DNA of 64,000 nt. Source: Isoetes taiwanensis (taxonomy: Eukaryota; Streptophyta; Lycopodiopsida; Isoetales; Isoetaceae). The stretch covers positions 3,914,905-3,978,904 of the forward strand of contig JAJEKV010000055.1 of NCBI GenBank assembly GCA_021234155.1. Direction: 5' to 3'. This document shows positions 17,503 to 49,639 of this stretch, piece by piece (position 1 is the stretch's first letter; each line of letters starts with the position of its first letter). Under the pieces are notes generated by a model. It saw only the letters and a program-made list of their open reading frames with translations. It was not told the origin of the DNA and did not search any database. Made by a program: the position numbers and the translations under genes.

Positions 17503-18297
17503 TGTTAGACGCTTCAACCGTTTGGGCCATTCAAGCACCGAAGTTAACTCCGGTGCCTCCGCAGTCACGAGCAAGCAGCTTCCCAACGGGGCAGAAGATT
17601 CTAGATTCAGGACAGAGTTAGCATATTTTCAGCTCCATCGGTGCCACCATCGAGCATATCATCATGTATCGAAGCTTCTCCTAGATTGCATACACATTTA
17701 AAAATCTATACATTCTTTGAAAAACTGGGCGAATAGTTCCTGTTTATTTTCATATCTTAACTTTGAAACATATCATTTTTCATTTTGAAATAATTTCCAC
17801 AGCTCTAAAACATAGAATAACCCTCTAATCCTCTTCCTCTTCCTCACTGCTCGAGTCTTCCCCGTCATCTTCTCCACATAACCTCATATTTCGATGTGCA
17901 GATACAGTCCCTAAATATCAAGGGATTTGTAATAATTATAAATGTCAAGAAAGAAGTCATGTACATGAGGTATGTACTTTCGATGAAATCATAATACCAA
18001 GTTAGTCTGCTTGTTATGCTTGACCGAGTTCGCCCAATATTCTCGCAAGAAGATTGGAAAATAAAGATGTCTTTGACTCAAAAGCTTAGCCGGTTGGTCA
18101 AACTCGACCAGCTAGACCCGAATGATAATGGTTTTCATGAGTAGTTCAAATTTATTAACAAAGCAAAGATCACTTACCATCTCTCAAAGTTAACACCATA
18201 CCACTTTGTCACCATCTGTTGGTATAATGATGAGCAACAAAGGATCATTGTACACTCGAAAATTTTTCTCTCACACCTTCAAGGACCGTGATCAGTA
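17503..18297. other. No gene seen
   Basis: Unique-looking AT-rich DNA. It may hold the end of the element containing the transposase-like gene at 18.8-22.2 kb, but I found no convincing terminal inverted repeat partner near 36.3-36.9 kb. Confidence 0.4.
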
Positions 18298-18579
18298 GTG
18301 TTATCAAGTGATGGGTGGTTTTTAATTCACATACTCAAAAAGCATGTGGGCTTACACATGTGCCGCATGTACCTCTTCATTGCCCTTCAAACCGCCTCTT
18401 CATTGCCCTTCCATAGCCCTTCATTGCCCTTCAAAAATCATGAGTGTTTTCTATTATATAAAGGATATAATGAGCATATTAGTGATGCAAATGATGATGA
18501 CATAAATTATTTGGTGAAGGTGCTTATATGTGCTGTGATGGTTAAAAAACTGGGTAGGTCAATAAAAAAGTTATCCTGA
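18298..18579 (+). other. Short ORF upstream of the transposase-like gene
   Basis: A 93-codon plus ORF with HIGH-complexity composition but no recognised domain; it contains a triplicated phrase (CTTCATTGCCCTTC near 18376, 18399 and 18418). Could be an upstream exon of the transposase-like gene or chance. Confidence 0.2.
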
Positions 18580-18812
18580 TGCAGTTACCTCATCTAAAAC
18601 AAGTATGCAGCTGTTTTTTAAAAGGACACAGCCTAAGCAGAACAATTGCCATTGTCCCACACTCCAATTTTCACCATCATCTCCAACTGCATTTGCAACT
18701 CATCATGATTAGAGAATAAATAGTAGGGTAAAAGCATGCTAGGGTGTCATACATTAGTTCTAAATTCATGTACTATTTTGCACTAGAAACCCGTTTTTTT
18801 ATGTAATTTTGA

Positions 18813-21800
18813 ATGTATGGTAGGAGGCCACGTGCTTGTCGTTATATATTTAAAAAAGGAATATATTTGATTGTTTGTCATCATGACATGAAGTGGCCGA
18901 CGGTTGTTGCGAAATTTTGGGCACAATCACTAGATTCCCTCCGATCCAAGCAAATTCCTCCAATCCATCCGGGCAAGCAAGCAAATTCCTCCAATTTACG
19001 GTCTAAGAATCTAAAACAAAGAAAAGAATTTCAAATTCTTGGCGGATCTTTGCATGCATATCAGTTTTTCATAGTAGTAGTAGTGGCATGGCACAAGAAA
19101 ATCAAAGTATGAAACGAAATTACTCAGCCGATGTCCAAAATGAGGACGGTGATACCGAATCGACAAAGGGAAGCAGAAAATGGTTGAACAAGATACTCTA
19201 AATGACATCTTTGGAATGAAGTGACAGAGAGTGATAATCACAACAAAGATGAGAATAGCGATCATATTCCGTGTATTTCACCAAAAAATCGGAAAAGAGC
19301 GTAAAAGGTTGTTGAATGCTTTAGAAATGAAGCCAGTCTCTCTATCTCCCGTGAAAGAGAGGTATTGGTTTCGTGGATCTTGCAAGATAACAGGCTCTTG
19401 GGGTTGTTTAAACTGTGATTGGGCTACCTTCCAGAAGCGGTGGTGAAACATTCATTGTTACAAAATCTCAAAGATGGATTAGAAGAGGTTAAATCTTCTA
19501 ATAGCAAAGTGGACAAGTTGGCGCACCAAGCACTCGCTTTATCCATGATTGTTGGGAAAATGGGGAATTGAAGCAAAAAGGAGTTGCTTCAAAATGTTGA
19601 ACTGCCATCCTCGAATTTGTCATACTGCAGTTGTAAGAAAGAGAATGAAAATTGCAGGTCCAAGTATATGGGCATTAGCAGGCAGAAAGAGAAGATCTGA
19701 TTGTTTGGACGAAGACACAAAGCAATTAGTCATCCAATTTTGGTTAAACAACACCAAGGTTTCACCTAAATACAGGGATGTAAGAAAGAAAAGGCATCAG
19801 TAATCCAGTTTCTTGATATACCACAGGTATTTCATTCTTTACTTTGTGAAATGCTTCTGATCCCTCATGTATATGCTCATTTTTATTGGAATTTATAGTA
19901 TCTTCTTTGTTTTGATGTATGAATGCTTTCTAATGACTGATCTATTATTTATGTATTCACTTTTACTTACTTTTACATATGCAATCACCTTTATTGGTTT
20001 GCTTACATTTATTGACCATGTATATTACACTAAATCTTCCTTTCTTATTTATGCAGTGACTCCAAAATTCTTAAGCAATGTACAGATTAGATATTTGCAT
20101 AATATTGTATGTTATACATGTCTATAGAGTACATATCTTGTACTTTCACTTTCGATAGTGCCTATGGACTTCAAGAATCTACTCTAGAACATTAATATGC
20201 TCTAGGGTACATTAATGTACCCACACTGCTACTTTATCCTTACACACGTATTTAATGTACATGTGTAATGTATATTCTGTTGTCCTTATGTATATTGTAA
20301 GTACATTCTCGAAAGTACATTCTCGAAAGTACATATGAGTGCATATGAGTACATATGAATGCATACGAAAGTACATCCAGAGTACATATTAGTACATTAT
20401 GAGTACATGTTAGTACATTTTGACTCATGTACTCAATTGCACATACAAAATCTTTTATTAACTATGATGATTTGAATGCACAGTGCGAAATTGCACTTTA
20501 AACTTTGTGGAGCAACACCTGTGAGGCACATTGGCATCGATTGTTCAATACCTCAAACCCCGATTGTGTAAGGAAGCTAAAGGAAAGAAACACATGTTGT
20601 TGTGTCAAGCATGAGCAAGCGTGAGAACTTCAGTGAAGGCATTTAATTCTATGAGGGCTAAGCTTCACATCAATTGTAGCTGCAATTGTGAAGTTTGTGC
20701 CGCTAACAAAATGATGGAATTTGTCGCTCACAAGCATACATACCGTAATGTCAAAGACTCTATGGAGGAGTATGGTTTGTCCAAAACAGGATAGTGACGA
20801 GTGGCACAAATTAAATTGTATTACAAGTGATTGCAAGAACTGTGGTAAGCAGAACATTAGCTTGTGTCCAAAAGAAACTGAAAATGACATTGAAAGTAAA
20901 GTCAATTGGCAAATATACTCTTATGTGGATGAGAAGTCTAAAAAGGAGTCTCAAGAAGGCTCGATTGGAGAAGACAACAAATGCACCTGTAATGCCGATG
21001 CCATGTTTGGTCACATGAAGACATTTATCCATCACAACTTTGCAGCCAATCGCAAAGCAAGGAATTCGGCGATGTGTTCAAAACCCGAGATGATTCGTTG
21101 ATATCGCTGGTTGATTTTGCAGAAAAATTATACATTGAAGCCTTTCAAAGAGGTTCACCCAACATTGGAATGCGATCAAGTTACTATAATGGTACGACAT
21201 TACCATGTCAAGGTAAATGGCATCTTGAAGAAGATCGTTCACTTGTATATTTCTGATGACGTAAATCATGATACACATTTTGTACAACATGCATTTAAGC
21301 TTCATCTAAAATGGCTGAAAGAGAATGGTGGATCTCATGTACGATCATATTGTGTGGTCTCGATGGTCGTGCCGCACAATACAAGTCCGTAAGAAATTCA
21401 TATTTCATTACCGTGTACTATGTTGAATATGGCATTCGCTTACAATGGAACTACTTTGGTTCGGGCATGGAAAAGGTGAACATGATGGAGAGTCCCGCCA
21501 AGGCCAAGGTGTACTTGCAAACTAATGCCCCTAAGCTTTGGTAGAACATGGAACGTAGATTAGAGGTGCACATGATGCTTGTGTTGTCTTGAGGAGCAAG
21601 CAATCTAATGTTGACAGAGTATACCGGGAAGTGAAGGAGTCGATATTGATAGAACCAATGCATTGATGTGCAACCTCTTCCCCGGTATTCAAATTGCATG
21701 CTATAGCTTCTATAAGTCCAACTCGACCCCACCTTAGTAATGGTGAGACCATTATCTTGCTTCAATGCTTGCATTAACTTTGAATGGGATGCTTGTGAGT

Positions 21801-22200
21801 CCATTTCATTCCGTGGAAGTGGCAATTAAAGAAGCTAGTACCCCGAGTAAGTACTCATTGTGAAGTAGAGAATGAGGAAATCACCGCTTTTGCAAATGAA
21901 AATGAAGAGCTAGAAGATCTAGTACATGTAGGTGATATGTTTGCTTCTTTTGCTGCACCAGAAAATGAAGAAAAATGTGCCATACTATATCCTTCTTTGC
22001 AAGAAAACAAAATTTGTTTTGCGGAAAATGTTATTGACGATTACAAAAATTATCACCATAAGTGTGAAACAAATATATCCGCAGATTACTATCAAAATTG
22101 CCCGGTTGTCACCACAAGTATAAGTTATTGGATGACAAAGAAGTTCTTGTACCGCAGAGTCCAATTATTGGAGCAAAGTTTGCAATGCCAAAAGTAAATC
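18813..22200 (+). pseudogene. Decayed DDE transposase-like gene
   Basis: Fragments in the three plus frames follow one another in the order expected for an uncharacterised transposase-like family with a cysteine-rich N-terminal half. At 19440-19800 KLAHQALALSMIV and NTKVSPKYRDVRKKRHQ are seen. At 20721-21101 come WHKLNCITSDCKNCGK, an LCPKE, a WQIYSYVDEK and a helical FGHMKTFIHHNFAANRKAR. At 21098-21250 LVDFAEKL is the likely first acidic motif; 21210-21310 has LYISDDVNHDTHFVQHAF; at about 21340-21540 LDGRAAQYKS and WNYFGSGMEK fit the second acidic motif and the downstream FF/YFGSG block. Frame changes between motifs and several stops show it is not functional, although some frame changes may be introns. 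The gene converges with the minus-strand Ulp1-like gene that ends near 22475. Family name not assigned; role as transposase is inference from motif order. Confidence 0.55.
20280..20425 (+). repeat. GTACAT-rich degenerate repeat
   Basis: GTACAT occurs roughly every 10-25 bases (AAGTACAT, GAGTACAT, TAGTACATT), in a probable intron of the transposase-like gene. A similar ATGTAC-rich patch lies at 34500-34720 in a probable intron of the minus-strand gene. Confidence 0.75.
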
Positions 22201-22474
22201 ATAAGGTGAAGGGTGCTTCAAGTAGCCTTATGCATTGTCTAACATGTGCATGAGATGCTACCGAAGTCTCACTTTGAAATGCTACATGATCCGAATAGCT
22301 TGAACAGATTATATGTTGGACAGATTATATGTTGGAGAGAAATCTGAAAAGAGAAAAGTGCAGGAGTAACATGATTTATATTACATTGTAATTGAGTACA
22401 TCAACTTATTTCAAAACATGTTTCTTGTTATTGATAACTTTATAGAATATATCAACTTCTTTTATGCCTAACTA

Positions 22475-22798
22475 TTACATCCCTCGTGGTGGCTGAAATC
22501 TCATAGGTATTGCATCCATTCTCCTAAGATTTCCTGAGCCATATAATGTTAGGACTAGCCGTGGGCGCAGGCCATCGCTACTTCTCTTGCAATTGGAAGC
22601 CCACTCCACCTCCACGCTTGTGCAAGTAGCTTGACTCGCGGCAAGATTTGGCAACCGATTCCTTCCCAAGGATCGATCATAGATCTTGTGAATTGCCCAA
22701 AGTATTGTTAGCATCTCATCCCTGGTGCTTCTGTCTTCGATCTGTTCGACCTGTTCCCATAATCCAGGCAGGCTGGTAAGGAATCTTGCTTCATACAT
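22475..22798 (-). pseudogene. Possible C-terminal exon of the minus-strand gene
   Basis: A 107-codon minus ORF (SLPGLWEQVEQIEDRSTRDE, ILWAIHKIYDRSLG) ends about 100-270 bases from the end of the plus-strand transposase-like gene. Upstream, at about 22860-22940, a direct repeat encodes two HGAEVE units. I recognise no domain. It is probably the 3' exon of the same gene as the blocks at 23.2-25.4 kb, or a separate short gene. Confidence 0.3.
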
Positions 22799-23234
22799 TA
22801 AGCCACAAGAGAATGGTACATCTGAAACATATTCTGCTTCAGTCCCTAAAGTAGAAGGTGGTTCATCCGTTCAACCTCTGCTCCATGTACATGTACAAGT
22901 TCCTTTTGTTCTGGTTCAACCTCTGCTCCATGTATAAATTCCTCTTCAATTTCATTTTCCTCAACTTCTAATCCAATAACAAAAGTTAAAAATTATTAGC
23001 ATTTTAAATCTAAAACTTCCTCAACCTTAAATATTAATAATAGATATAATTTAACAAGTACTCAAAAGAGTTATGAAAGCAAATAAACATCAAGAAAAGT
23101 TACAGTAAAACAGATTCAGTTTATCAAAGGCATTGTACATAGGGCCTTTATTCTGTTCATATCTTCGCCGTATTCATCCACTATAGTCTTGATGATAATG
23201 TCACCATATATGTCCCAAGAGTCATCCAACTTAT

Positions 23235-23762
23235 GCTCCTTTATGTAATTGGTAAAATCGGTGCATATTTCAACCCTACCAACCAATCAAATAAGAAGGA
23301 CGATGGTTGTCGCGTTCTATCAAAGGTGTCCATAGTGTGCAAACTTTCTTTGTTGAAAAGAGCTTTGTGCTTAGACTCAAACACACCACGTAGACCATTT
23401 GTATTTAGGATATTCAATGACAATACTATCCATAGGTACTACTTGAGGGGTTACACCAACCTAATTTGTGTAAGGAAGTCCCCAACATCTCTTTTTCCAT
23501 AAACATGTTTAAATTTTGGGATGCCATCTTCATAGAGCTTGTCCAAAATTGATGTTATGATATCTAAGGTAAGAGTTGACCATATGGCCAAATCCCAATG
23601 AAAGGAGGCATATTGAAGCATTGCTTTCATTGTTGGTCCAAGAGAGAAAACTCCATGTTCGTAATTATGGGCTTGTAAGAGGAAATATTCATTTCCCGGA
23701 GTTCTATAAAAGTAACCCGAACACCTTGGATCTCAAATATTAGAGTCCTATAAGGAAGCAAA
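23235..23762 (-). pseudogene. HAD/FCP1-like phosphatase domain exon(s)
   Basis: Reading the minus strand from a TATAG acceptor at about 23750, the peptide includes GYFYRTPGNEYFLLQA, then FHWDLAIWSTLTLDIITSIL, then GIPKFKHVYGKRD, and in the next block SIVIEYPKYK followed by KHKALFNKESLHTMDTFDR. The order R-x-P-G-x-x-x-F, AIWST, and I-x-[DE]-x-x-x-K is that of motifs around the cap and motifs II-IV of FCP1/NIF-type HAD phosphatases. The usual DD of motif IV reads EY, and the motif I DxDxT is not found in the preceding bases, so catalysis looks lost. Stops and frame changes occur. It lies downstream of the Ulp1-like exons on the same strand; one gene or two cannot be decided. Confidence 0.35.
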
Positions 23763-24104
23763 ATATAATTAACATACAAGTAGCACTAGGATTGCAACCA
23801 TTCATTGATTACATTATCAAGATTACATAAAGCCAAATGGCTTAGTGTTGTTTCCAATAAGAAAAAAGCCAATTGGCCTCATTTGATAAAGAGTTATGAA
23901 AGAAGTTAAAAAGCTTCCTGAGGTGCTAGTAGTGCCTGCTTCATTGAGATGGCTCTTATAATTAATCATAGCCTTAATGAGCACATGTCTCCCCGGACTG
24001 CATACTCAAGATCAAACCAATCTCAAGAGAATCAAAGAATGAAAACAAATAGTTTTCGGAATTAAATATTATATAAAAAGCAATTGTGTATATGTTATCT
24101 CACC

Positions 24105-24540
24105 ATGCTCTTAGCCTGCACCTGGGCTTCCACAAAGGCTTGCATATAAGCCATGACATAAAGACCACAGGAAGCCAGGTCACCTTGTTGTGGAACCTCA
24201 GGTCTAATTTCTTTCTCTCGACTGAATTCTTTTACATAAATATCAATCTTACGAGAACCGAATTAGTCAATCTTTGAATGATATCTTTATGAAGCCCGCA
24301 ATAGAAAATAACATCAGAACTATGAAGCATTACACTCAATTAATAGTGAGTGCACTTACATCATAACCATCCTCGTGTTGACCTGCACATTCTTTAGCGA
24401 GTTCAGAATAAGGATAGCTGGAGAAGACAAAGGGGTGCTGCTACAGTTCTTGGCCTTATCTAAAACAATGATGACTAGTGCATGGTGCATAGGATCCTCA
24501 ATCCGGATTGGAATCATAATATAATCGGCATTTGCTCAAT
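24105..24540 (-). pseudogene. Ulp1/C48-type cysteine protease exons
   Basis: Two minus-strand exons carry the order of catalytic motifs of Ulp1/SENP (peptidase C48) SUMO proteases. About 24360-24520 encodes PIRIEDPMHHALVIIVLD (catalytic His region, usually HW) and PAILILNSL (usually ILHLDSL, so the catalytic Asp appears as Asn). About 24110-24290 encodes PEVPQQGDLASCGLYVMAYM, matching the Q..(D)CG(L/V)(Y/F)(V/L) catalytic-cysteine motif, with the Gln of the oxyanion hole. Exon edges have GT donors (GAT/GTAAGT at about 24357 and ATG/GTGAGAT at about 24104). Known role of the family: processing or removal of SUMO-like proteins. Ulp1-like domains are repeatedly found captured in plant transposons. 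The protease part is my most secure domain call in this gene. Confidence 0.6.
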
Positions 24541-24769
24541 ATGATTCCCCGGCCCTTTTTGAACTACAACCAATCCGCATCGTACCATCGGGTTGCATCG
24601 GATGACCAGTTTGTTAAAGGCCGCTTGAGTAGGCTAAGAAATTCTCACGAAGGGAAGAAAAAAAATGCATCACGCCATTTGTCGCATAATGCTAATCGAT
24701 ACCTATTCACAAAGAAAGTGAGGTTAGATGTTCAAGAGTTAACCATAATGCCTTCCAAATAGTTACCTT

Positions 24770-25372
24770 CCAAATATATCTATATGCACATAGACATGTG
24801 TCTGTCTCTGCAAAGACCTTCCACACAATATTTAGTCACTTTGATTAGAGGCTTTTGCTGGAAAGGGTAGCATGGAACTATTTTCAACAAGCTCTCCGGG
24901 TCTCGTAAAAAACAGACTTGCATTATTGAGAGACAAATGAATTGCAACTACAATGTAATCTTACTTACTCTCCCCTGTCTTTGTCATCTCCGTGATCGAG
25001 CACTTTCGGATGATGTTTGGCTTCTAGTCCTGCAGAAGTCATCATAAAATTGTTCAGATATTACACTTCAAAAGCTTCAATTAACATAATAAATATTCAC
25101 CTTTTTGTTGAAGTTGTATTTTGCATGCACTCCTTCCTTTTTCTTGTCTGCTTCTCATGTTTAACAACCTTGGTCTCCTCAACCTTGGTTTCCTCTATGT
25201 CATCAACCTTAGTGGCCTCAACCTTTGTTTCCTCAACCTTTGTTTCCTCAACCCTGGTTTCCTCCACTGCCACATCATCCTTTTGGATCTCTTGTACCTC
25301 CACCATCCTCTATCTTTTCAATGGTTGCCTGAACAAAGGCTCAGAAGATTCACCAATTTCCAACACTTCTGC
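24770..25372 (-). pseudogene. Linker exons with acidic KVEETKVEET repeat
   Basis: The exon at about 25100-25371 follows an acceptor TTATGCAG and encodes EVLEIGESSEPLFRQPLKR, one in-frame TAG, then a repeat of the form VEETK about eight times, then a basic HEKQTRKRKE. The next small exon (about 24975-25026) encodes AKHHPKVLDHGDDKDRGE between an AG and a GTAAG. Another exon-like block (about 24770-24910) encodes DPESLLKIVPCYPFQQKP in one frame. Together these form the region between the RING/coiled-coil N-terminal part and the protease exons. The stop codon marks decay. Confidence 0.45.
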
Positions 25373-25439
25373 ATAAATTAGTCACCAAAGTCAATCAGTA
25401 TTGTGGATCCTAATTTTAAGTTAATGGTATACCTGTTGA

Positions 25440-25600
25440 ATCATCAGTCAACAGCATTTGAATTTCCTTGAAATGATGGCATTGGCTTAATAGGTTTCCA
25501 AATTGGTTTCTCCGAAATTTGTATTGTGAAGAAAGCCCCTGCAGACTGGAACTTTATCTTGTGAAGAAAAAACTTGAAGAACCTACAAAAATGGTGTTTA
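25440..25600 (-). pseudogene. Small exon of the Ulp1-like gene
   Basis: Between a TTTTTGTAG acceptor (about 25590) and a GGTATACC donor (about 25433), one minus frame encodes HHFKEIQMLLTDDSTG, which joins in frame with the next exon beginning EVLEIGES. It is the first exon downstream of the intron that contains the LINE. Confidence 0.35.
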
Positions 25601-25792
25601 ATAATTGCGGTACACACAAGCAAAAAAAGAAGATGCAACATACCGCGGTATTAACTCATAATTTAACTTTTCAACCTCTCACGATAATCCACAAATGTTC
25701 GAATCGGTATGCTCGTGGCTATATGGAATTCCAAGTGACATATCAAGCTCATATGACATGAAAATTAAATTCCAGGGATTGTAAATCAATCA

Positions 25793-25819
25793 AATGTGAT
25801 TTTTTTTTTTTTTTTTTTT
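25793..25819 (-). repeat. LINE poly(A) tail and left target-site duplication
   Basis: AATGTGAT followed by 20 T; the matching AATGTGAT is at 34190-34197 just outside the LINE 5' end. Confidence 0.65.
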
Positions 25820-26066
25820 GGAGGTAAGATTAGATATATGTATTAATATAAAGCATTATGTACAATGAGACCCACTCGGATGTTATGGGGACCACAAAGA
25901 TGTGTACTACGAGAGAGCATCGCCTCCGCCTTCCCTACTTTAGGGGTACTATAGGGAGTCGCCCATCTTCACCATAAAGCAGGTACTATAGAGGGAAGCA
26001 GCTCCGTTCCACTATTGGGTCCTCAAAACATTCTCAATTCTGAATAGATGGGATTCCTCGCCTATG

Positions 26067-27021
26067 TCATTCCCCGCCTTCATTATCATCCCAATGGCAC
26101 TTAAAATAAAAAGTAGAACCCCTCAGAAGGAACCGAAGTCTATCAAGACCCTTGTTGTAGTTAATTCCATGCTTCCTATGATGTGATAGCGCCATCAGTG
26201 CTACTTCTGAGTTGAAAGAGTTCTTTAGCTTCACTATGGAGATCCCTTGGCCACCTAGTGCCACATCACATCGGTGTTTCCAGATGACCCATATCGCAAT
26301 ATTCACCAAGGAGGCTTCGACATCGCGCACCTATCGCTGATCGATAAATCCGCCATCTTAGATGGTGTATCATCAGCCCAATGATGGGGCAAACCCGCAA
26401 TACGTAACTCGCGATCCGGGGCAAAAGAGGAGGTGTCCAATAGATTCAGTGGTATGGCAACCAAGTGGACATCTATCATTGTCCAGAATACCTTTATTGA
26501 ATAAACTTTCCTTTGTACTGAGCCCTCCTTGTAAAGCTGTCCACCTAAAGAATTGTATCTTTCTTGAACAAAGCGACTTCCAGGAGTTGGCTAAAACAGC
26601 TTTGGCAACTCCATTGCTCACCCCAAGCCTTGCCTCAGCTATCAGAGGAGTATCTACACATAGTCCTCGATAGATTCTTGCCACACTATACTGCATGTCC
26701 ATCAACCCGCCATTCCTCACAAGGCCCCACTGTTCCAGTTAGGTTGGTGACTTTGCCTAATATCTCTCGTAGCACCTTACAAATTACCTTCGCTGGGGTT
26801 CTGATTTTACTCTTGAATGTAGTCCAACAGACCCATTTCCCATTCATCCACAGATGTTGCAACCTAGTGATTCCACAGCTCTTCCATTTAATGAAGATGC
26901 GGGGGTGAGAGAGGGCCAGAGGAAGACCCTCCCTCCCCCATATCCTAGTATTCCAGAATAAACTGAAGCCACCTGCTTCCCTAGGAGGATCCATAGGAAC
27001 AAAAAGGTGTTGCACATCCAA
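26067..27021 (-). pseudogene. LINE ORF2 C-terminal part with zf-RVT domain
   Basis: 26373-26720 encodes SRKIQFFRWTALQGGLSTKE and later NDRCPLGCHTTESIGHLLFC, the typical plant zf-RVT pattern (W..L...L.TK..L...G......CP.C.....S..HLLF.C). 26686-27021 holds the preceding segment with FSLFWNTRIWG, and 26067-26330 the last segment with VNIAIWVIWKHRCDVAL. The three pieces lie in different frames, showing frameshifts. In known plant L1 elements this part follows the reverse transcriptase thumb and ends the protein. Confidence 0.8.
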
Positions 27022-27065
27022 ACACGCTTTGGAGAATCTTTCTCATCACAGAGATGTACCGGGGG

Positions 27066-28675
27066 CTACTTTGAAACTAAAGTAGAATGCTCCCAATTCA
27101 TCTCCTCGAGAGCCGGCTTTCCCAAGAGCTTACCTTGCTTCAACCAATAGGATACAAATTTTAAAGCAGGTGATAAAGCAGATGACTCACCTTGTAGTAC
27201 TCTCCAAACAAATTTAGCCGCCAGTGGCTCAGGTTCGAAAGTGAAGGGTCTTTGCAGCCCAATCCCCTCCCTTTTGTCCCGGACACGCGCCTCCTCCTGT
27301 GCCACCTTAGCCATGCCACCCCAAATGAATTTCCCCGATGATAGTTTGCATTTGATTGTAAACCCCTTTCGGGCAATCATCGCTGATGAGTAATAAATAT
27401 GAGAGGCAGCTAGCACTGCATTAGCCACTGTCACCCGACCAGATGTTGCCAAGGTCTTTGTGGACCATAGGCCTACCTTCTTTCTGAGTTTATCCATTAT
27501 GGGGGTCCGTAGGCCTTTGAGGTTGTCGAAAGCACCGTGGGAAGACCCGTGAGCTTAATGCATTCTCCAAACGCTACTACCGAAAACCCGCACTCGCCCC
27601 CGAGGATCAATGGGACTATCCAAGCCCCGAGAACTACACACTTATTGGCATTAAGGCCGATACCCGTATATAACCTCAAAGGACGAAGAATATCTCGAAA
27701 AGAGTGGAAACTGTTGTCATCATATCTGAGGAACATGAAGGTATCATCTGCATATTGCATAATTGTTAGCTTTTCTGTACCTCCAGGAAAGGTAAGCCCT
27801 TCCAGATCTCCCACTAACATCTTTAGCTGAACCATTCTTGTCAATAGGTTGGCCATGATGAGGAATAAGTAGGAGCGAGGGGCAGCCCCCGCCTAATCCC
27901 CTTCTTGAGTTTAAACAGGCGACGGTTGTCCATTAACCAGACCGACGCAGCTAAGTTATTCATCCCCAAAGCCAACCAATAAAGTGGAGCTCAAAACTCA
28001 TATGGGACATGACCGAGCTTAACCCTTCCCATCCGAGAGAGTCATATGCCTTTCTAAAGTCCATCTTAATCATTACACAATTTTGTTTGGAGGCTCGCAC
28101 CAATGCGCCCTTCCTGGCCGCAAGATAGTTATCCAATATGTATTCACCCTCGCAAGAAAGCTGATTGCTCATGCCCACCACCCCTGCTCGTAATTGGTTT
28201 CAAGCGTTAGCAATAGCCTTCATGATTACCTTATAGATGACATTGGTGAGTGCGATAGGGCCTCCATTCCCCTAGGCTTTGAGGTCTTGGGACCTTCTAA
28301 CAAGAGTGATAAACCCTGGCCGCTAATGATGGGTGTAGAGAGCATGACATCCATGCTCCACAAACAGCTCGATGAAGTCCGCCCAAGCACATCCCAAAAT
28401 TCAACAAAGAATTCTGGAGGAAAACCATCCGCCCAGAGATTTCCTCGCCGCAAGGGAGCATAAGGTTTTGTAGATCTCATCCCCTCTATGTTACGTAGTA
28501 ACAACCTATTTTTCTCGGGTAACCTTCTCCCCCAATCCACTTTAGTTAGCCAAAGATGCCAACCGAAAGCATGGTAAGAGGAAGGTATAGGATCTTCCTT
28601 AAATTGATTCTCAAAGCTTTCCCTAATAAATGATCTGATCTCCTCGTGGTTCCTCCAATACATTTGAATTGCCAT
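27066..28675 (-). pseudogene. LINE ORF2 reverse transcriptase, frameshifted
   Basis: RT motifs are present in order on the minus strand. The block at 28226-28675 carries the region before and including NLWADGFPPEFFVEFW (the PDG/DGF motif). 27960-28181 carries IKMDFRKAYDSLGW (motif A, catalytic Asp codon at about 28061). At about 27855-27900 a frameshift splits the R-G-x-P-L-x-P-Y-L-F motif B. 27497-27856 carries QYADDTFMF (motif C, YADD codons at 27743-27754). 27066-27497 carries the thumb/connection segment TKTLATSGRVTVANAVLAAS. At least three frame changes break the enzyme. Confidence 0.85.
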
Positions 28676-28774
28676 CCTTAATCGATGAGATACTATTATC
28701 GCCTAACCTAGCACCCGCCATTCTAAAAAAAACATTTGAGTTCTCATGGTCAAGTTAAGCATACCACTTAGTTT

Positions 28775-29855
28775 TTAGAGAACAGCCGCCCCTCTAGCCT
28801 CCTCCTCCTCAATTGCCTTTGCTTTCCCTTCCAGCTCTGCCTCAATGTTCTGTTTGGCAATGTTGTGTGGATCAGATAATAAGTCCTGCTTAACTATTCT
28901 CAACTGATTGTATATATCCATCTTTTCCTTTTTGAACTCCTTGGCTCTGCTCTTTCCCCACACTTTAGCCCAGGCCTTCATTAGGCTGAGCTTCTCCACC
29001 CAGGCTTTCATGCTTAGAGGATTAAGATCATTAGAGAGAGAGGAAATAAATACCCTAAAAGGCTTGCAAAATGCCTCCTTTCCTAGCCACGAGGTATTGA
29101 ATTTGAAAGGGATATTTCCTCGCTTGCCAGTAGAAGGCATGTTTTCAAGAAATAAGCTTTGGGGAACATGATCAGAGTGGGAGAAGGCAAGTTCCCCCTC
29201 AACATAACACTTATCCATGAAGCATGCTGTTTTATTGGCCATATAAAATCTGTCTAATAGACAATATACTCGGTCTTGGCCCTTCTGCTTATTCGACCAT
29301 GAGAAGGTAGCATTGGAGGGCGGAATCAAATTAAATCCCACACTATCAAGCAAAGAGTTCCAAGAAGTATCCTCATCTCCTGATAGATTTCTATGCAACC
29401 CAATTTTTTGGTCCCACACATCGGTCATGTTCAGATCTCCCCCTAAAATCCAGTTTTCGGTGACATCCCCTTGGTGACCTATCCAGCTTTCAATTTCTTT
29501 CCACATCGCGGCCCTTTCTGCAGGCTTATTTGACGCATATACATTGATGACCCCCCATTGGCACTCATTAGATTCAAAGGTCACCACCTGCCATCGACCA
29601 TCCCCAGCAGCATAGTAGGACTTCTGAACAAGGCCTCTCCAGAGGATACAGGTGCCACCTTTAGTTCCCCTGGCTGCACAGCTAAAGGAGGAGTAGTTGC
29701 CTCCTATCCATTTGCCTATAGAACTTGCTTCGAAGTCAGGAAGTCTATGTTCCTGTAAGAGAATAACATCTGCCATCATAGAGCGTATGGCGGCAAGCAC
29801 TCTACCACGCTTGAATGCCTTTAATACCTCTGAGGTTCCAGGATACAATTTTCAT
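28775..29855 (-). pseudogene. LINE ORF2 endonuclease (APE/EEP family)
   Basis: 357 codons on the minus strand with the endonuclease-exonuclease-phosphatase signatures in order: DVILLQEHRL (metal-binding Glu), GGTCILWRG, WILGGDLNMTD (catalytic D and N), RVYCLLDRFYM and FSHSDHVP (SDH, catalytic Asp-His). The true N-terminus is in another frame: an ATG at 29855 begins MKIVSWNLRGI, the canonical W-N-x-R-G start, so one frameshift lies near 29800. The C-terminal third is a lysine/glutamate-rich helical linker (KVWGKSRAKEFKKEKMDIYN) leading to the RT. The nicking function at the target site is established for the family. Confidence 0.88.
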
Positions 29856-31440
29856 AGTATATAGTATAATAACCTCTCGACAAGACGGCGGTGCTGCATC
29901 AGAATGATACAAAAATTCCTTGCACATGGGCCATCTGAACCAACATAAATACGACCTATATATATGGGAATGTATTTCCCCAGTGGTCTCAGTCGGTCCC
30001 TCTGACAGAGGGCAGAGGATATATGACCATCCCTTTTTCTCAAGGCGATCCCCCCACCAAAGATATCTTTATAAGTGGCCCCCATCCCTAACACTTTCTA
30101 GGTGTGTTATTGCACCCATACTTAAAATGAGTGGCTCACCACCCCTTGCACCCCTTAGGTGTTTAGTTTGCAATACCCTATAATTAATAGCTGCCACCCC
30201 CTCCTGACCAACACAATTTCTAGTCACATACGTCAAAAAATGTGGCCCTATATAGGTTCTTGCTATGACTTCTTGTATCGAGGTAGATACCTCCAGGGTT
30301 GTGGAAAGGTTTAGTTTGTCCTTTCCTCATCACCAAAGCTTTAATTTGTCTTTCCCTTTCCTTATTAGAAGGGATACATGGAAGGATACCCATACCCCTT
30401 CGTAATACTCCAATGTATAAACATCCCACTCCCACTTGATCACACCACTTCTTAGTTAAACATTTGTACCACAATGATCCTAACCTGGAATGTGTGTAAG
30501 TAGCCCAAGTACCACTGGTACTAGCCCAATATTGTACAAATGACCAGGTATTGGGGTTCCAAGGTGGACTTAACCCGGATAATATGCCATGCCACTTAGC
30601 TACCCAAGTGGTGGATTTGTTATCCCCTGTTGGTAAGGGTGTTAGTATGCTTGGCATACTATAATGCCCCCCCCATCACCTTCCCTAGTTGACCCCTCAA
30701 CCCAATCTTTTTTTTAAATCTCAACCCTCCCATCAGGCAAGTTATTCCTGCCCCCCCCAATCGACTTCAATAGTTGACCCCCATCCAAATTATTTTTTTT
30801 AACCAACCCTCCCAACATAACTGATATTATAAAGTGGCCCCCACTAACTTCCGTGACCCTCTCTAAGCTTGTCCACATGTTTTGAAACATGGAATATGAT
30901 CCCCTGTTTTTATGAGTGAGAGCAGGGAGAAGTTGGCCAGTCCCATACCATGAATGTAGCACCAAATAATTAGGAGTTGCCATATATTTCCCATACCCCT
31001 GTTAGTTGTCTTAGATTCTTGGGATTGGCAATAACAAAGAGCACTTAATTCCTTCCTTAAATTCATAACCAGATCCTTTGTGTCAAAAGTTAAACTATAG
31101 ATCATAAAGAGTTCCATTAAACTGCCGATATGTAGAACATTATCCAAATACAAAATAGTCAGCCCTGGCTGGAAAATGGGCTCGATCCTTAACATTGTGT
31201 GTAGATCTAAGCTTCAATCTACATCCCAGGTCCCGGTACAGGCCAGAATTGTTGCCTTTTCTGCTACATTTACCTATTCTGATACATTTACCTTTTCTTG
31301 TACAATATGATAAACAGAGATATTTGCCTTTTGTAGTACTATTGTCTTTTCTGATACAACATACAAAACAGAGAACTATGGTGCAGCTAGAAGCCTCGAG
31401 CAGGAGAAGAACTAACCTCTGATTTTTAAACACCATGGAG
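29856..31440 (-). other. Unexplained interval between LINE ORF1 and ORF2
   Basis: About 1.6 kb that should be nearly absent in a plant L1, where ORF1 and ORF2 usually abut. Decayed minus-strand ORFs of unusual composition lie in it: 30220-30657 (145 codons; rich in W, includes LWYKCLTKKWCDQVGVGCLY), 30714-30983 (89 codons; LVLHSWYGTGQLLPALTHKN) and 30863-31195. The last two overlap in different frames over the same peptide-like signal. None resembles LINE proteins. At 31220-31300 a short repeat TACATTTACCT/TTTTCT occurs. It may be an insertion of another element or captured foreign coding DNA; origin not identified. Confidence 0.5.
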
Positions 31441-31479
31441 ATCAGCCGAACTCGAGATCTGCTTACACAGCAGCCCAGA

Positions 31480-32928
31480 TCATCCCTTTTTCTTGGAGGT
31501 ATCATCTATGGAGTGATCCAAGAGTACCTTTGCAATGGCAGATTCGAATTCACGATTGCAGATTTTCTTCCCATTAGGTTTTTTTACCTTCTTTAGACGG
31601 GCCTCATCTAGAGGCTTGTCGCTCTGATCTTCAGAGGCAGCAACTTCAACCTCCAAGTTTAGAGGTCTGCAACCATCGGAAGTGGAGAGGACCTTCCCAT
31701 TACCAATCGAACTTGCAGAGGCAGCCTCAAATCGGGCTTGCAAAAGCTGGACGCCTTGAAGAAGTAGTTGCTTAGGGGAAGGGGGAACATCAGCAACAGA
31801 TATATGGCTAGCAGTGAGAGAGTCTCCAGCCAATGAGCAGGCGTAGAAATAGAAGGCTCCGGCCGGCAAAGATCTATGATCCGGAGCAACTTCGGAAGGA
31901 TAGTCACTTCTCCAGGGGGAGGAAGGGCCAGCTCGGCAGGGGGAGATGGGCATGGGACCAGGTAATAGAGCCTCGCTCTTATCATTTGAAGCAGAAAGAG
32001 GGTCAGGGCACAAGAGGGGCTGTTGTTCCTCGATTACAGCAGATATGACCTTGGGATCTTCAACGACCTTCACCTTCACTTTGGCAGCCTTTGATACCGC
32101 ACCACCGTTTCTCGGTTTATTACGGGCTCTTACCAAGATAAAGCCTTCTTCATCCACTGTCTTGCCTTTCTCTACCTCTGCACTTACTGTCTCGGCCATA
32201 ACAGGTGGGCAAACTTCCCCAGCATGCACCAGGGAACCGCAGGTAGAACAAGGCAAGGGCAAGCCAGAAACTTGTAGTTTAAACTCAATGAGCTCGCTGT
32301 TAAAACCTTTGAAAAACAGTGCTTGAGGAAGCGGATTGAAGATGTTGACGGAGACACAGATTTTAGGGGGCTCGTTGGGAGAGCCACCCATGCAAACAAA
32401 CTCGCCTAGAGCAGAAGAGATGATCTTGAAGGCCTTTTCTGTCCAGAACTCACAACTGAGGTTAGAAAGAGACAACCAGATTGGGAAGAAAAGGGCATCA
32501 GGGCTCTTAGCATTAAAATTTGGCCTCCACCGCTGAAAAAGGATCTGCCCATGAAGGCATGTGATGACGCCCTTCTTGAAAATGAGGTCTGCTTCCCTTT
32601 CACTTGGGAAGGTGACAAGAAAATACAGATTACCAAGAGGCTGGACCCTGGGCAGAACACGGCCTCGAGATGCCCGCTCCAAAGCTTTTTTAATTTCCTG
32701 AAGAGATGGATTACCTCTGATTACCTTAGCAATAAGACCAAGGTTATCAAGGTGGCGAATCCTATTCGCCACCTCAGGGATATGAAGAGAAAGGGAAACT
32801 TTGTCCTCCATATCCTCGGACAAAGACAGGGCCTTATCCATAAAACTCAAGCCAGTAGAGGCTGGCTTGCCAAGTGCAGGTAACAAGGACAGACTGAGTT
32901 GGTTCAACAGCTTGGTCTCCAAAAACAA
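31480..32928 (-). CDS. LINE ORF1 protein (DUF4283-like plus zinc knuckle)
   Basis: An intact 482-codon frame. Residues about 50-220 look like the DUF4283/RRM-like nucleic-acid-binding region of plant L1 ORF1 (LYFLVTFPSEREADLIFKKG, then a W-rich FPIWLSLSNLSCEFW). A CX2CX4HX4C knuckle with key residues C227, C230, H235 and C240 follows. Residues 240-482 are low-complexity and end in a basic KKVKKPNGKK. In known LINEs ORF1 binds the element RNA and acts as a chaperone. The true start is probably upstream: the preceding minus frame (32834-33244) overlaps and encodes the second copy of a duplicated domain, so a frameshift separates it from this ORF. Confidence 0.85.
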   Translation of the reverse strand: MFLETKLLNQLSLSLLPALGKPASTGLSFMDKALSLSEDMEDKVSLSLHIPEVANRIRHLDNLGLIAKVIRGNPSLQEIKKALERASRGRVLPRVQPLGNLYFLVTFPSEREADLIFKKGVITCLHGQILFQRWRPNFNAKSPDALFFPIWLSLSNLSCEFWTEKAFKIISSALGEFVCMGGSPNEPPKICVSVNIFNPLPQALFFKGFNSELIEFKLQVSGLPLPCSTCGSLVHAGEVCPPVMAETVSAEVEKGKTVDEEGFILVRARNKPRNGGAVSKAAKVKVKVVEDPKVISAVIEEQQPLLCPDPLSASNDKSEALLPGPMPISPCRAGPSSPWRSDYPSEVAPDHRSLPAGAFYFYACSLAGDSLTASHISVADVPPSPKQLLLQGVQLLQARFEAASASSIGNGKVLSTSDGCRPLNLEVEVAASEDQSDKPLDEARLKKVKKPNGKKICNREFESAIAKVLLDHSIDDTSKKKG

Positions 32929-33646
32929 GCTGTCTCACTTGCCTTCTGATTTGAAATGGGTCCCCTCTGATAGCAAGCCCGCCTGTGCAGTTGAACTGGT
33001 CGGGGAAGAGAAATCTATTATCAATGATCGAGGCCCAGAGCTGATCAACGGGGCCTTGGACAAAGCCCCACCAGATAAATTCAGTATTAACTAAGAAGGC
33101 TGATCTGACGATAAAAAGAGGGCCTTGCGGGAATGACGAGTCCTGGTGAGATACTGAAGATGATGAGAAAGGCTGGGGGGACTCTGAAAATGCAGCTTCT
33201 GAGATTTGAGGGCTGGAATCAGAAGAGAGCAATAGATACTCCATGAGCAGAACACATTAAACTCTATAAAGTTCTAGAGTAACAAAATCAGTAAGCTGGT
33301 CTGAATATATTAAGAACTTTGCCTTTGGGGGGCGATCTGATCCGAGATAGGCAATTCTTAGCTCAATAGAGGAAGCTAAGGTGTTGCTAGTAGGTCCGGA
33401 TTGCTCTCCAATGAAGAAAATATCAGGGAAGACTGATTCGTCCACAAGGAATGCCCAGAGATCCACAGGAGATCCCTCCAGCCAGCCACAACAGATTTGG
33501 TCCAAGTTGTAGAAGATGACAAAGTATTTAGTTGAATCTGTCACAGGAGAACTTGGAGATGGAATGGCAGTATTGGACGATGGATTAGAGGCACTAGCTT
33601 CAGAGCAGATCAAAGCTAAAAAGGCGTTGGTAACCCCATTGAACAT
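32905..33646 (-). pseudogene. Duplicated N-terminal domain of LINE ORF1
   Basis: Two minus-strand ORFs (33257-33646 and 32834-33244) each contain a related block of about 70 residues. The first reads CCGWLEGSPVDLWAFLVDES, the second WWGFVQGPVDQLWASIIDNR; both continue with FPD and end near Y/VFGD or YLGSD. They lie head to tail upstream of ORF1, about 400 bp apart. Domain identity unknown; it is not part of the DUF4283 region. The pieces are in different frames from ORF1. Confidence 0.6.
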
Positions 33647-34189
33647 TTTGAAGCTTTATATGAAAAAGGAGCAAAAAGCTTCATGCGGGGAGAGAGAGAG
33701 CTTCTGACGGGGAATGGATGATTCTTTGCAATGAGATAATAGAAAAACATTGATTGAAGATAAAGAGGGTGATTGCATGGAACCAGATATACAAAAAGAC
33801 CACTGATTGAGAGCCTTTATAATGGCAACTGCTGCCACTGCTGCAAGAGCTGCAATCCTTCCATATCTTTTAAGTAATCATGAAAAAGTCATGGTCAAGG
33901 GGAGTGTATTCTTGCCCTGATTCAACCTTCCCCTGCAACCCGAATCCAGTGTCCCCTTCTACAAGGGGACCGACAGCATAAACTAAAACCTAACTCAATG
34001 AAAGGGACCGATCCAAGGGTCCCCTTCTACACAAGGGGACCGGCAAGAATCCACAAGAACGACCGGCCACCGACCTTCATTTCGGGAGGAAAGGATTTCG
34101 AGCAGAGTTTTTTATGAGAGCAGCCGCCCAAAATAGCGCCCAAAATAGCGCCTAACCAAAATAGCGCCTAACATCTCGACTTCGAATTC

Positions 34190-34207
34190 AATGTGATATT
34201 TACTTAC
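34190..34207 (-). promoter_or_regulatory. Splice donor with adjacent LINE target-site duplication
   Basis: On the minus strand an exon ending in CAT is followed by GTAAGTAAAT (donor at 34202-34207) and then by ATCACATT, the right copy of the LINE target-site duplication. The LINE is thus intronic. Confidence 0.5.
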
Positions 34208-34475
34208 ATGTATCCGAGGACTTCACTGGTACCTCAAGCTCTTCCTCAAAAGACTTTACAAGGTTTACAGGTGATGCCCATGTAGAAGTATTTCCCAAAT
34301 CCTCCTGACCTTCTGTCAAATCCAATACCTTGGAAGAAAGTGCTTTTGTTGGCTTCTTTAACATCTACAATAAAGAGTAGAAAAAGACTTGAGATAAGAA
34401 AAGGAATATGCATGATTAACAAGACTACAGTATCATACCCTTTTCTGGTTTCCTTATGCTACCAAAATCACCTGC
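34208..34475 (-). pseudogene. Middle exons of the RING/Ulp1-like gene
   Basis: Exon 34208-34369 follows an acceptor TTTATTGTAG and encodes LKKPTKALSSKVLDLTEGQE and later VKSFEEELEVPVKSSDT. A 40-base exon at about 34436-34475, between CAG and GGTATGA, encodes GDFGSIRKPEK. Charged, probably disordered linker. No stop in the chosen frame. Confidence 0.45.
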
Positions 34476-34499
34476 ATCAGTCAAACATTGAGTATATCA

Positions 34500-34725
34500 G
34501 ATCATCAACTAAGAAATGTATTCTCAATGTACTCTACAAGTACAGTCAATGAAAAAATTAACTGACAATGTACTCCAATGTATCCATCTGATAATGTACT
34601 CTGATTTATCATGTAAATGTATCCAATGTACTGTTGAAATGTACTGAATGTACTCTGAAATGCATTGTTCTGAAGTACAATCAATGTAAACAAAGCTAGC
34701 TGATATTGTACTTTGCCCACTCGAT
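34500..34725 (+). repeat. ATGTAC/GTACA-rich intronic patch
   Basis: AATGTACTC, AATGTATCC and ATGTACTG phrases recur about a dozen times. Compare 20280-20425 in the convergent gene. Confidence 0.7.
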
Positions 34726-35056
34726 GAGTCATGAAGTATTCAATAATAACTCAAAATGTAATTTTGACAGCAACAATAGCAATGTATCTGTCAATTGCTA
34801 CACTATACAGTTCTCAATAACAAGTAATTAGCTACCTACATTACTGAGCTGATGAGCACATGAAATTAAAAACTCTCATCTTTAAAAATAAGTAGTCTAT
34901 TTGGCAGATTATACATGACTGAACCCACATTATCCAACTACAAAAACTATGTATCTAAATACTCAATGTAAATGCAAGCCTAAAACCTTCATGCAAAAAA
35001 GAATCTAACTATTAAAATAAGAAAAGAAATTGTAAATTAAATGTACATCTACTAAC

Positions 35057-35265
35057 CTTTTGTTGCAAGCAGTCCAAGTGCTACAGGCAAATTGCTATTC
35101 CATGAGCAGTCAGGATCAACACATGAAATCTTTGTGCTAGCAAGATAGGATATACACAACAGACAATAAGGGTGTCTGCAGGGTGCCATAGAACCACTGG
35201 ATTCACACCAAAAAGATTGCTCACAATATGTACATGAAGAAAAAGGCCAACAATAATCTGATCTG
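35057..35265 (-). pseudogene. RING-like zinc-finger exon
   Basis: In a minus frame different from the longer overlapping ORF, the exon between CTTGCAG (about 35266) and AAAAG/GTTAGT (35057) encodes a cysteine pattern starting CTYC at 35234, then about 14 residues, CRHPYCLLC, ten residues, and CVDPDC ending at 35106. That is C-x2-C, C-x-H-x2-C-x2-C, C-x4-C, close to a RING-HC finger except that the final pair is spaced by four. RING domains usually act as ubiquitin or SUMO E3 ligases; here function is inferred only. The exon is missed if only long ORFs are considered. Confidence 0.5.
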
Positions 35266-35700
35266 CAAGAATTGTAGACTGGAGAGGAGGGGGCTGTAAA
35301 GTAAGGATCGAGGAATGTTCTAAAAATTCCCTGAGTTCCATAATTTTTTTGTCTCCTGCCTCAGCTGAGCTCATATCAACAGATGTAGCTTCAATCTTTG
35401 CATCTACATGTTTCAATTCGGTAAGATTCATGTCAATATGTTTCTGGAGCTCAGCCTGATCCTGCATTCTTGATTCCTTTTGCTCGATAGCATCCTCAAC
35501 TTTCCATTTTAGGTGCTGAAATCTTATGGCACTTTCAGATGTTTGGTCCAGTTTTGATTGTTGATCCTCCAATGCTGCCATTTTTGCTTCAACATTCCTC
35601 TGCTTTCTTCGACCAACCCGATATATAACCGCTTCTCTCTCCCCTTCCTTGTGCTTCAATGTATCAAGGATCTCTTTGCCTTCTTTCCTTTAACTCGCTT
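35266..35700 (-). pseudogene. Coiled-coil exon of the RING/Ulp1-like gene
   Basis: The minus frame beginning at 35659 has a long charged helical segment with heptad-like spacing (RKQRNVEAKMAALEDQQSKL, KVEDAIEQKESRMQDQAEL, HIDMNLTELKHVDAKIEA) over about 110 residues, ending near LREFLEHSSIL. It is preceded by KRVKGKKAKR in the same direction. Likely a dimerisation coiled coil next to the RING-like finger. Confidence 0.5.
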
Positions 35701-36285
35701 AATTTCTTTTTAAAGATGTTTTCACAATAGATCTGCTGTCTAAGAAGTTACTGAAAACTTCTAATTGCTCCTTTGTGTAACTCTTAGCTGAAGTTCTTGG
35801 GGCTTTTGCATTTGCATTGCTAGATTTCACTGTCACCACCTCACTAGATAGATCCGAATCCTTTTGCTTCGATCTGGCCCATGCTTTGACATCTTCCCAG
35901 TCCACTTCTGCACCTTTCAGATGCAATGCAAATGCCCTTGCAAAGTACAGAGGGACATAGTGATTCATAACATCTTTTCTTCCAAAAGCAAACTCATACC
36001 ATTTGCAGAATTCTTCTGTCCACTTCATATCAATTCAGTCATCCTTATAGCCATACCTGCTTGGTGCTTCATCACCCCATATCTCTCTTACCATAGCATC
36101 ATACTTTGCCAGTAAACATCACAAAAATTCAGTTATTCCGAGTCTTCACGTAAAACCCGTATCATCGTGGTAAAATTTCCCTTTTGGCATGCGAACTTGA
36201 AGCTTTCTTATTTGCTTGGAGGCTTTCCTATCCTTGGAGACTTTCTTGAACCCTTGATTGGCGTCTTCTTTGGGGTCTTTGCCAT
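35699..36285 (-). pseudogene. 5' exons of the RING/Ulp1-like gene
   Basis: An ATG at 36285 begins MAKTPKKTPIKGSRKSPRIG, a basic, NLS-like N-terminus; a stop or frameshift follows about 24 codons later, with KQIRKLQVRMPKGKFYHDDT in the next frame. The following exon (about 36048-36110) encodes KYDAMVREIWGDEAPSR before a GTATGG donor. The exon at 35699-36028 encodes TEEFCKWYEFAFGRKDVMNH, YFARAFALHLKGAEVDWEDV and a Ser/Lys-rich tail. No family recognised for this helical domain. The basic start and position make this the probable N-terminus. Confidence 0.45.
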
Positions 36286-36329
36286 GTTTACGCGACTGCG
36301 AAAATGAACAAAGCAACAAATTTGATTTC

Positions 36330-36984
36330 ATAAGATAAATTTGCCCTCAAATATTTGAACATCGGGACCAGTAAACCAAACGCATTGTTTATATTCATGT
36401 TATACCTACATCGATTTAGCTTGAAAAATACCGCTTTTCAATTTTTAATCCATAGAACCAGTTCTGTTACTTCTTGAATTCATTTTCTGGACCGAAATCA
36501 CGTAAAAATTAAAACTACAAAATAAAGAAAACAAAACTTACAGGGCAGATCACACGGATATGCAGTGTTCCGAGCCGGTTCAAACGTTCTTAGCGGTGCC
36601 AATTTTCAGAAAACAAACCAATTCTTGCTCCACTCGGTTAGCCAAGAAACAGGGGGAACAAAATGAAGGGAATTTTTGGTACACTCGAATAATGACATTT
36701 TCTTTAATGATGGCAATCAAAAACTTGCTATAATTAAAATACATAACGTTATATGTAATGTTTTCGAATGGCCCTTTTTTTTATCACCCTAGCGTGCTTA
36801 TACCCAGTATAACCAAGATCATCAAAGGCATGAAGAAGTTTTACCATAAGCATTGAGTTGCTCTTCCTTTCCTCGAACAAACATCTTTGCAAGGCCTGGA
36901 TAAAAGATGTCATATTTTAATAATAATGCATACAAGACAGCAAAGAATCAAATACATTATCACAATAAAACAATGTTATTGAAA
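36330..36984. other. No gene seen
   Basis: AT-rich DNA upstream of the RING/Ulp1-like gene. It should contain that gene's promoter and perhaps an element terminus, but I see no clear TATA/TIR signature. Confidence 0.4.
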
Positions 36985-37975: not shown

Positions 37976-38044
37976 GCTAACGCATCAATGGGTCGCACTT
38001 CATAGGAGTCATTGATGCATGCACAATCATTTAGGATAAATCTA

Positions 38045-38905: not shown

Positions 38906-38909
38906 TCTA

Positions 38910-49637: not shown

Positions 49638-49639
49638 CA

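Follow-up and report, generated by a model that had tools for sequence, protein, structure and literature searches.

What does a transposon gain from a second gene that resembles a protease of the small ubiquitin-like modifier SUMO? This question is raised by a 64,000-nt stretch of the Isoetes taiwanensis genome (contig JAJEKV010000055.1, positions 3,914,905 to 3,978,904 of the forward strand; hereafter, the window), in which a decayed transposase-like gene on the (+) strand converges with a (−) strand accessory gene that encodes coiled-coil, RING-like, Ulp1/C48 protease-like, and HAD phosphatase-like blocks. An earlier note, made from the letters of this DNA alone, described such a pair at 18298..36285 and proposed that it represents a large element manipulating SUMO or ubiquitin pathways. 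We found one convergent pair there, as described, within a single DNA transposon with terminal inverted repeats (TIRs) whose true borders are 18726-36805 and which is flanked by a perfect 4-bp target duplication (Table 1). The observation made in the earlier note is therefore confirmed, and its interpretation is supported by the results below.

Both genes lie within one terminal inverted repeat element

The genome searched comprised 1.66 Gb in 1,110 contigs, from which ten loci besides the window were fetched as 20-kb stretches and compared with it. The left border fell at GGGTA in the window and in all ten fetched copies. Left and right borders could both be placed in c1, c3, c7, c8, and the window; in the remaining six copies, the right end was lost or not reached. 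Comparison of the ends defined a ~21-bp TIR beginning with GGGTA, a full length of about 9.7 kb, and, around each of the five copies with both ends, its own perfect 4-bp duplication (AAAA, CCCT, AATA, TATT, TACT). That both genes belong to one large element, as previously suggested, is borne out by these common TIRs and duplications and by copy c1 (L031/L032), which is uninterrupted at 9,718 bp. The window copy aligns with c1 in two blocks (96.5% and 92.9% identity) on either side of 8,385 bp that are absent from c1.

A search of the window with the end pattern (≤2 mismatches) returned two matches, which are the two element ends, with none expected from 100 shuffles. Across the genome, the TIR pattern gave 1335 + 1349 = 2,684 exact matches, compared with 0 + 0 for the reversed control. 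The 100 matches listed contained 35 facing pairs, two of which span 8,936 and 9,620 bp; the longer one, on contig C112, encloses coil/RING, C48, HAD, and transposase matches.

The other 33 facing pairs span 319–342 bp, have ends that are mostly GGGTAAAAGCATGTTAGGGTG, and constitute ~320-bp miniature inverted-repeat transposable elements (MITEs), which look very numerous. These short non-autonomous units have the same ends as the full element.

The two genes recur together across the genome

Marker lists, each holding about 150 of the best matches among up to 3,668 candidates, were crossed with one another, and all counts in this section refer to the places so listed. The coil/RING exon yielded 738 first-look candidates and 152 matches, 150 of which were listed, leaving 134 places after 16 overlapping-frame rows were dropped; the other lists held 150 places for the C48 exon with the catalytic Cys, 131 for the HAD exon (19 double rows of 150 dropped), and 150 for the transposase. 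All four markers occurred in the same order and orientation at 33 of the 134 coil/RING places. Specifically, a HAD match lay downstream of 79 coil/RING places (median distance, 3.6 kb), and a C48 exon was found near 82 of them (median, 3.0 kb). At least one partner marker accompanied 107 of the 131 HAD places, while wrong-orientation controls gave 0, 1, 3, and 1 of 131. Of 52 matches to the C48 family PF02902, 14 were located ≤25 kb from a coil/RING place and 19 were ≤25 kb from a convergent transposase.

The earlier note had regarded its reading as untenable if the two genes never occurred together or if the (−) strand exons were those of unrelated host genes. A convergent transposase was present ≤25 kb from 47 of the 134 coil/RING places, most commonly at ~5.6 kb, and the (−) strand exons repeat genome-wide inside the same TIRs and 4-bp duplications. 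The motifs are not chance, because the coil/RING exon has 152 genome matches and the blocks keep their order genome-wide. The coil/RING, C48, HAD, and transposase blocks thus belong to one mobile element, and the reading of the (−) strand as a host gene is ruled out by the TIRs, the duplications, and the recurrence of the four markers.

The transposase gene

The (+) strand motifs LVDFAE, LYISDDVNHD, LDGRAAQYKS, and NYFGSG that had drawn attention to this gene are present within 20993-21544, and the gene is decayed, as had been recognized. Stops and frameshifts disrupt both genes of the window copy, which is dead. Because the copy is broken, a Pfam scan of its open reading frame pieces gave mostly noise, and better copies were therefore used. 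The best open transposase frame (c3, 381 aa) has a region rich in Cys, together with the motifs VVDFAENY, EHW, ISDDRNHD, WSDGCAAQYKS, and HGKGEHDG. No Pfam transposase model matched the (+) strand gene in scans of the window pieces and the better copies, and no relatives were confirmed in bacterial or archaeal genomes or in viral contigs. We provisionally class the gene as a DDD/E-type, Sola-like transposase, whose motifs presumably resemble those of Sola transposases.

Domain composition of the accessory protein

The (−) strand blocks follow the order originally described, running from a basic start (36285) through a helical and coiled-coil region, a RING-like finger, an acidic repeat, and the C48 motifs to a HAD-like block. 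The blocks reported for this strand are real; 25805-34189, however, which lies within the span reported for the gene, is an inserted long interspersed nuclear element (LINE). We take the blocks to form one spliced gene with predicted exon joints.

The assignment of the Ulp1/C48 domain is solid. The exon with the Cys alone matched PF02902 with 31.5 bits in c8 and 24.8 bits in c7 (cut-off, 20.7), and the domain spliced at the predicted joints reached 52.6 bits (7.1e-14) in c8 and 1.3e-10 in a mosaic row. In addition, a C48 profile built from three rows detected the SUMO proteases SENP7 (8.1e-5) and Ulp2 (3.7e-4) in the PDB. As in these proteases, the C48 fold is recovered by profile, the alignment extends over "PxILILxSLK" and "VPxQ...CGxYxxxY", and the catalytic His and Cys are kept; the His, the Cys, and the oxyanion Gln are in place in the three aligned rows. 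In contrast to SENP7 and Ulp2, the protease here is carried by a transposon and accompanied there by coiled-coil, RING-like, and HAD blocks.

The finger has eight ordered Cys/His ligands (C3HC4) that are invariant in all four rows chosen as intact, and its best PDB match was TRIM2 (E 0.019). The HAD block resembles the FCP1/NIF phosphatases (UBLCP1-like) in its RP and WS motifs and in a match of copy c8 to NIF (PF03031), obtained by reading across a frame change (24.4 bits versus a cut-off of 21.8; E 2.6e-5). A four-row HAD profile retrieved only UBLCP1 from the PDB (E 0.49).

Signs of selection between two subfamilies

Copy c8 represents a diverged subfamily, being ~50% alike to the other copies in the coil/RING protein, and both subfamilies have the same convergent arrangement of the two genes. 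We compared c8 with all rows by the ratio of amino-acid-changing to silent differences per site (pN/pS), which ranged from 0.12 to 0.54 for the N-terminal and middle parts of the transposase (17 rows), from 0.28 to 0.56 for C48 (16 rows), from 0.33 to 0.56 for coil/RING (29 rows, with doubly fetched loci entered twice), and from 0.46 to 0.73 for HAD (14 rows). In every block, amino-acid-changing differences per site were thus rarer than silent ones, with HAD the least constrained block and stop-rich rows at the high end of the ranges. Because silent differences approach saturation in many rows, the true ratios are lower than those given. For the C-terminal part of the transposase, comparison within the young subfamily gave an uninformative 0.42–0.90 (four rows from broken copies, one undefined).

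Relationship to known transposons

Elements of the Sola superfamily are described as having 4-bp duplications and TIRs of 11–1124 bp, with most elements measuring 2–9 kb and some exceeding 15 kb (PMC10741241). The present element agrees in its 4-bp duplications (5/5 copies), ~21-bp TIR, and 9,718-bp copy, a likeness of duplication, ends, and size. By duplication length, end length, and size, Sola is provisionally the nearest superfamily. Accessory genes (Fanzor1) have been described in Sola2 elements, as this element carries one of its own (PMC3627910); unlike here, no Ulp1, RING, or HAD gene is reported for Sola elements in the accessible portions of the two sources (PMC10741241, PMC3627910).

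The capture of Ulp1-like proteases by plant transposons, which the earlier note had invoked, has a precedent in the VANC/KIU genes (PMC13317346). The KIU/VANC-bearing non-TIR Mutator-like elements (MULEs) of Arabidopsis, known as VANDAL, have a separate accessory gene with a Ulp1 domain and in this respect resemble our plant element; however, they belong to the MULE superfamily and have longer duplications and no TIR, and the words RING and phosphatase occur 0 times in that review (PMC13317346). Mutator-like target duplications measure 7–12 bp (PMC10741241), and membership in this group is ruled out by the 4-bp duplications found here. Ginger1 shares 4-bp duplications and the presence of a Ulp1 or OTU protease with our element, but its protease is fused to the transposase, and it has TGTNR ends, longer TIRs (40–270 bp), and specific targets (CCGG/CCGT) (PMC2836005). 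Membership in Ginger1 is ruled out by the GGGTA ends, the ~21-bp TIR, and the five target sequences listed above.

Ulp1-type proteases have entered several transposon groups, and their presence in plant transposons was already known; their precise function there is stated as unknown (PMC13317346). In the open-access literature searched, we came across no Sola-like element that combines Ulp1, RING, and HAD. Here, the protease is encoded in its own gene beside a RING-like finger and a probably dead phosphatase fold. Well over 100 copies or fragments of this element are present. This suggests that capture of SUMO-pathway genes also happened outside Mutator and Ginger. The role of SUMO-pathway genes in transposons is directly testable here, given two diverged subfamilies in which several copies retain open exons and selection has left clear signs.

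Possible functions of the accessory protein

We consider it fairly probable that the two convergent genes are those of a single family of cut-and-paste TIR transposons, in which a Sola-like transposase is accompanied by a SUMO-protease accessory gene used in the nucleus. Several observations weigh against this explanation. As many as 87 of the 134 listed coil/RING places have no listed convergent transposase ≤25 kb away (four have one in another orientation), for which decay, nesting, and limited sampling are possible reasons. Similarly, only 58 of the 150 listed transposase matches have coil/RING or PF02902 ≤25 kb away (49 of the closest 72 and 9 of the other 78); sampling accounts for part of the missing partners, transposase relatives without the accessory gene are likely to exist, and some accessory genes may be too diverged to be among the matches listed. 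The exon joints of the accessory gene are predictions. Unlike in SENP7 and Ulp2, the catalytic Asp of C48 is replaced by Asn in all three aligned rows, and copy c3 has lost the Cys. The finger has an unusual last pair (C-x4-C), is damaged in several copies (c5, L022, L024, L025), and remained below the Pfam cut-off (zf-RING_5, 14.4 versus 27.9 bits; E 0.037); because its Pfam and PDB scores are weak and several copies are damaged, we call it RING-like. The other HAD rows fell under the NIF cut-off of 21.8 bits (c8 first frame alone, 20.1; c5, 19.4; c7, 16.9), and, in contrast to FCP1/NIF phosphatases, the DxD of motif I is replaced by ExQ or DxQ (FEIQG/FDLQG) in all four rows. Because this pair is gone, the HAD fold is probably catalytically dead and probably no phosphatase. 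A RING-like and a HAD-like block in one unit, which the earlier note had considered unusual, are thus both present, the HAD block being degenerate and the RING statistically weak by sequence alone.

In this explanation, the transposase would cut the common ends of full elements and MITEs with a 4-base stagger, and the accessory protein would act as a nuclear SUMO-pathway factor. The coil and RING might assemble it on its target and bring partners together, while the C48 protease would deSUMOylate host factors of silencing or repair, or else the transposase itself; the loss of SUMO could then protect or promote transposition. The HAD fold would be a binding module and not an enzyme. A role in the SUMO/ubiquitin pathway or in anti-silencing is inferred.

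Two narrower proposals differ in the target of the protease, and we give them equal weight, each being possible and neither likely by itself. In the first, a narrower form of the explanation above, the accessory protein would be a VANC/KIU-like anti-silencing factor that binds the element's own non-coding motifs and whose Ulp1 domain strips SUMO from chromatin silencers, allowing the family to escape methylation. The plant precedent of a Ulp1 domain inside the VANC/KIU anti-silencing genes (PMC13317346), the separation of the gene from the transposase, the excess of silent differences, and the many copies or fragments (at least 134 places) are consistent with such a factor, but Pfam recognized no DNA-binding domain in the accessory-gene pieces scanned. 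In the second, the protein would be needed for the transposition reaction or for repair, deSUMOylating or ubiquitylating the transposase or strand-break repair factors and not acting on silencing. Ginger1 transposases carry fused Ulp1 or OTU domains, and the paper describing them relays a proposal that proteases of this kind participate in transposition (PMC2836005); the layout kept between our subfamilies points the same way. However, the protease here is encoded by a separate gene, and many listed transposase matches have no detected partner, which would be surprising for an indispensable helper.

A bolder and more doubtful version combines all domains, so that a coiled-coil RING ligase, an Ulp2-type protease, and a dead FCP1-type binding fold would form a single-protein SUMO/ubiquitin switch acting on host silencing or repair factors and keeping the family active. 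If true, this would be the first transposon-borne protein to join both arms of the SUMO-ubiquitin pathway.

It is improbable that the accessory gene is a passenger, i.e., host gene pieces caught once and carried without function. Plant transposons are known to capture Ulp1 pieces (PMC13317346), the HAD catalytic residues are lost, and many copies are decayed; nevertheless, pN/pS is <1 in every block between subfamilies that are ~50% alike in protein, the C48 Cys, His, and Gln and the eight RING ligands are kept in both, and the same order recurs at 33 loci. Finally, a transposase relic that merely neighbors a host gene is hardly credible given the common borders with 4-bp duplications and the four-marker order at those loci, even though ABC-transporter-like pieces in the orientation of the (−) strand gene occur on both sides of the element.

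A repeated NIF/FCP1-like family

A NIF/FCP1-like repeat family with the motif LDLNG, e.g., L050 (C889:565400-566130), had 5,058 first-look candidates; six near-full-length matches besides the query, with 94–97% identity, topped the matches listed. This family may mark another mobile element. One of its loci (C889) raised the idea that an intact NIF phosphatase is carried by the ~56%-identical family of transposases; 102 of the 150 NIF rows listed had been used there, after omission of the strongest, host-like ones. The idea was rejected after searches with both genes of that locus, in which 148 NIF places (two double rows dropped) were compared with 138 transposase places (12 rows dropped as already listed) and 56 earlier places. 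Among the matches listed, C889 was the only convergent pair ≤10 kb apart; one further convergent pair was separated by 27.6 kb, and pairs in other orientations lay 8.9 and 17.2 kb apart. The repeated NIF family is thus mostly a separate repeat from the transposon, and a weak link is possible.

The window copy and its surroundings

The features of the window copy are listed in Table 1.

Table 1. Features of the transposon copy in the window and of the LINE inserted into it
Feature	Position	Strand	Basis or remark
Target site duplication AGTA, left copy	18722..18725		Same letters as 36806-36809
TIR, left element end	18726..18746	+	Exact match to GGGTAWAAGCAYGYTAGGKTG
Transposase, N-terminal part; decayed (stops, frameshifts)	19088..19826	+	tblastn with open exon of copy c7
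Transposase, Cys-rich and catalytic part; decayed here (TCCCxKH, VDFAE, ISDDxNHD, DGxAAQYKS)	20541..21556	+	tblastn with 381-aa open frame of c3
Transposase, C-terminal part; decayed	21764..22059	+	Matches copies c7 and c8
Candidate C-terminal tail frame of accessory protein	22478..22792	−	Not found in diverged copy c8
FCP1/NIF-type HAD block; frameshifted, motif I unreadable in window copy	23128..23720	−	Copy comparison
C48 exon with catalytic Cys (QQGDLASCGLYV)	24098..24256	−	Copy alignment and Pfam
C48 exon with catalytic His and Asn (HHALVII...ILILNSL)	24359..24664	−	Profile part aligns to SENP7
First C48 exon	24792..24908	−	Alignment of copies
Acidic/basic repeat linker (VEETK...)	25100..25369	−	Read from sequence
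LINE inside accessory gene, foreign to the transposon	25805..34189	−	DUF4283 frame, endonuclease frame, poly-A
RING-like finger (C-x2-C...C-x-H-x2-C-x2-C...C-x4-C)	35055..35246	−	Eight ligands invariant in four chosen intact rows
Helical domain and coiled coil	35309..36166	−	85% identity to copy c7; exon has 152 genome matches
Basic N-terminal start of accessory protein; broken by stops	36166..36285	−	Read from sequence
TIR, right element end	36785..36805	−	Shares 19 of its first 21 bases with left end
Target site duplication AGTA, right copy	36806..36809		Same letters as 18722-18725

The LINE is a foreign insertion, because the uninterrupted copy c1 lacks that stretch. Of its five frames scanned, two matched the Pfam families DUF4283 (1.2e-15) and Exo_endo_phos (4.4e-10), and the other three matched no Pfam family; a YADD reverse-transcriptase motif was spotted by eye only. 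A 7–8-bp repeat, read off the sequence, is present at both junctions, and the insertion point is probably an intron of the accessory gene. We propose that the LINE arrived later than the transposon, which had inserted between ABC-transporter-like pieces.

These pieces lie on the (−) strand on both sides of the element (16500-18700 and 36806-38100). On the right flank, a nucleotide-binding piece at ~37.0–37.2 kb gave an E-value of 1.8e-4, under the Pfam cut-off, and the left piece contains GENWSVGQ, which we take to be ABC signature-like. Because such pieces are found on both sides, the insertion interrupts an ABC-transporter-like gene or a relic of one. Beside them, ~1.2 kb beyond the right element end, an 871-bp fold-back unit (38041-38911) has 144-bp arms that are 97% complementary.

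Elsewhere in the window, a 10.1-kb stretch (48220-58353) is bounded by 104-bp inverted repeats with 100% complementarity and an AT-rich start (TATATATAATTATATTATGGGTCC); it is probably a young TIR element. Finally, a ~1.65-kb tract at 12200-13850 is 91% pyrimidine on the (+) strand and includes pyrimidine-only runs of 64 and 91 bases.

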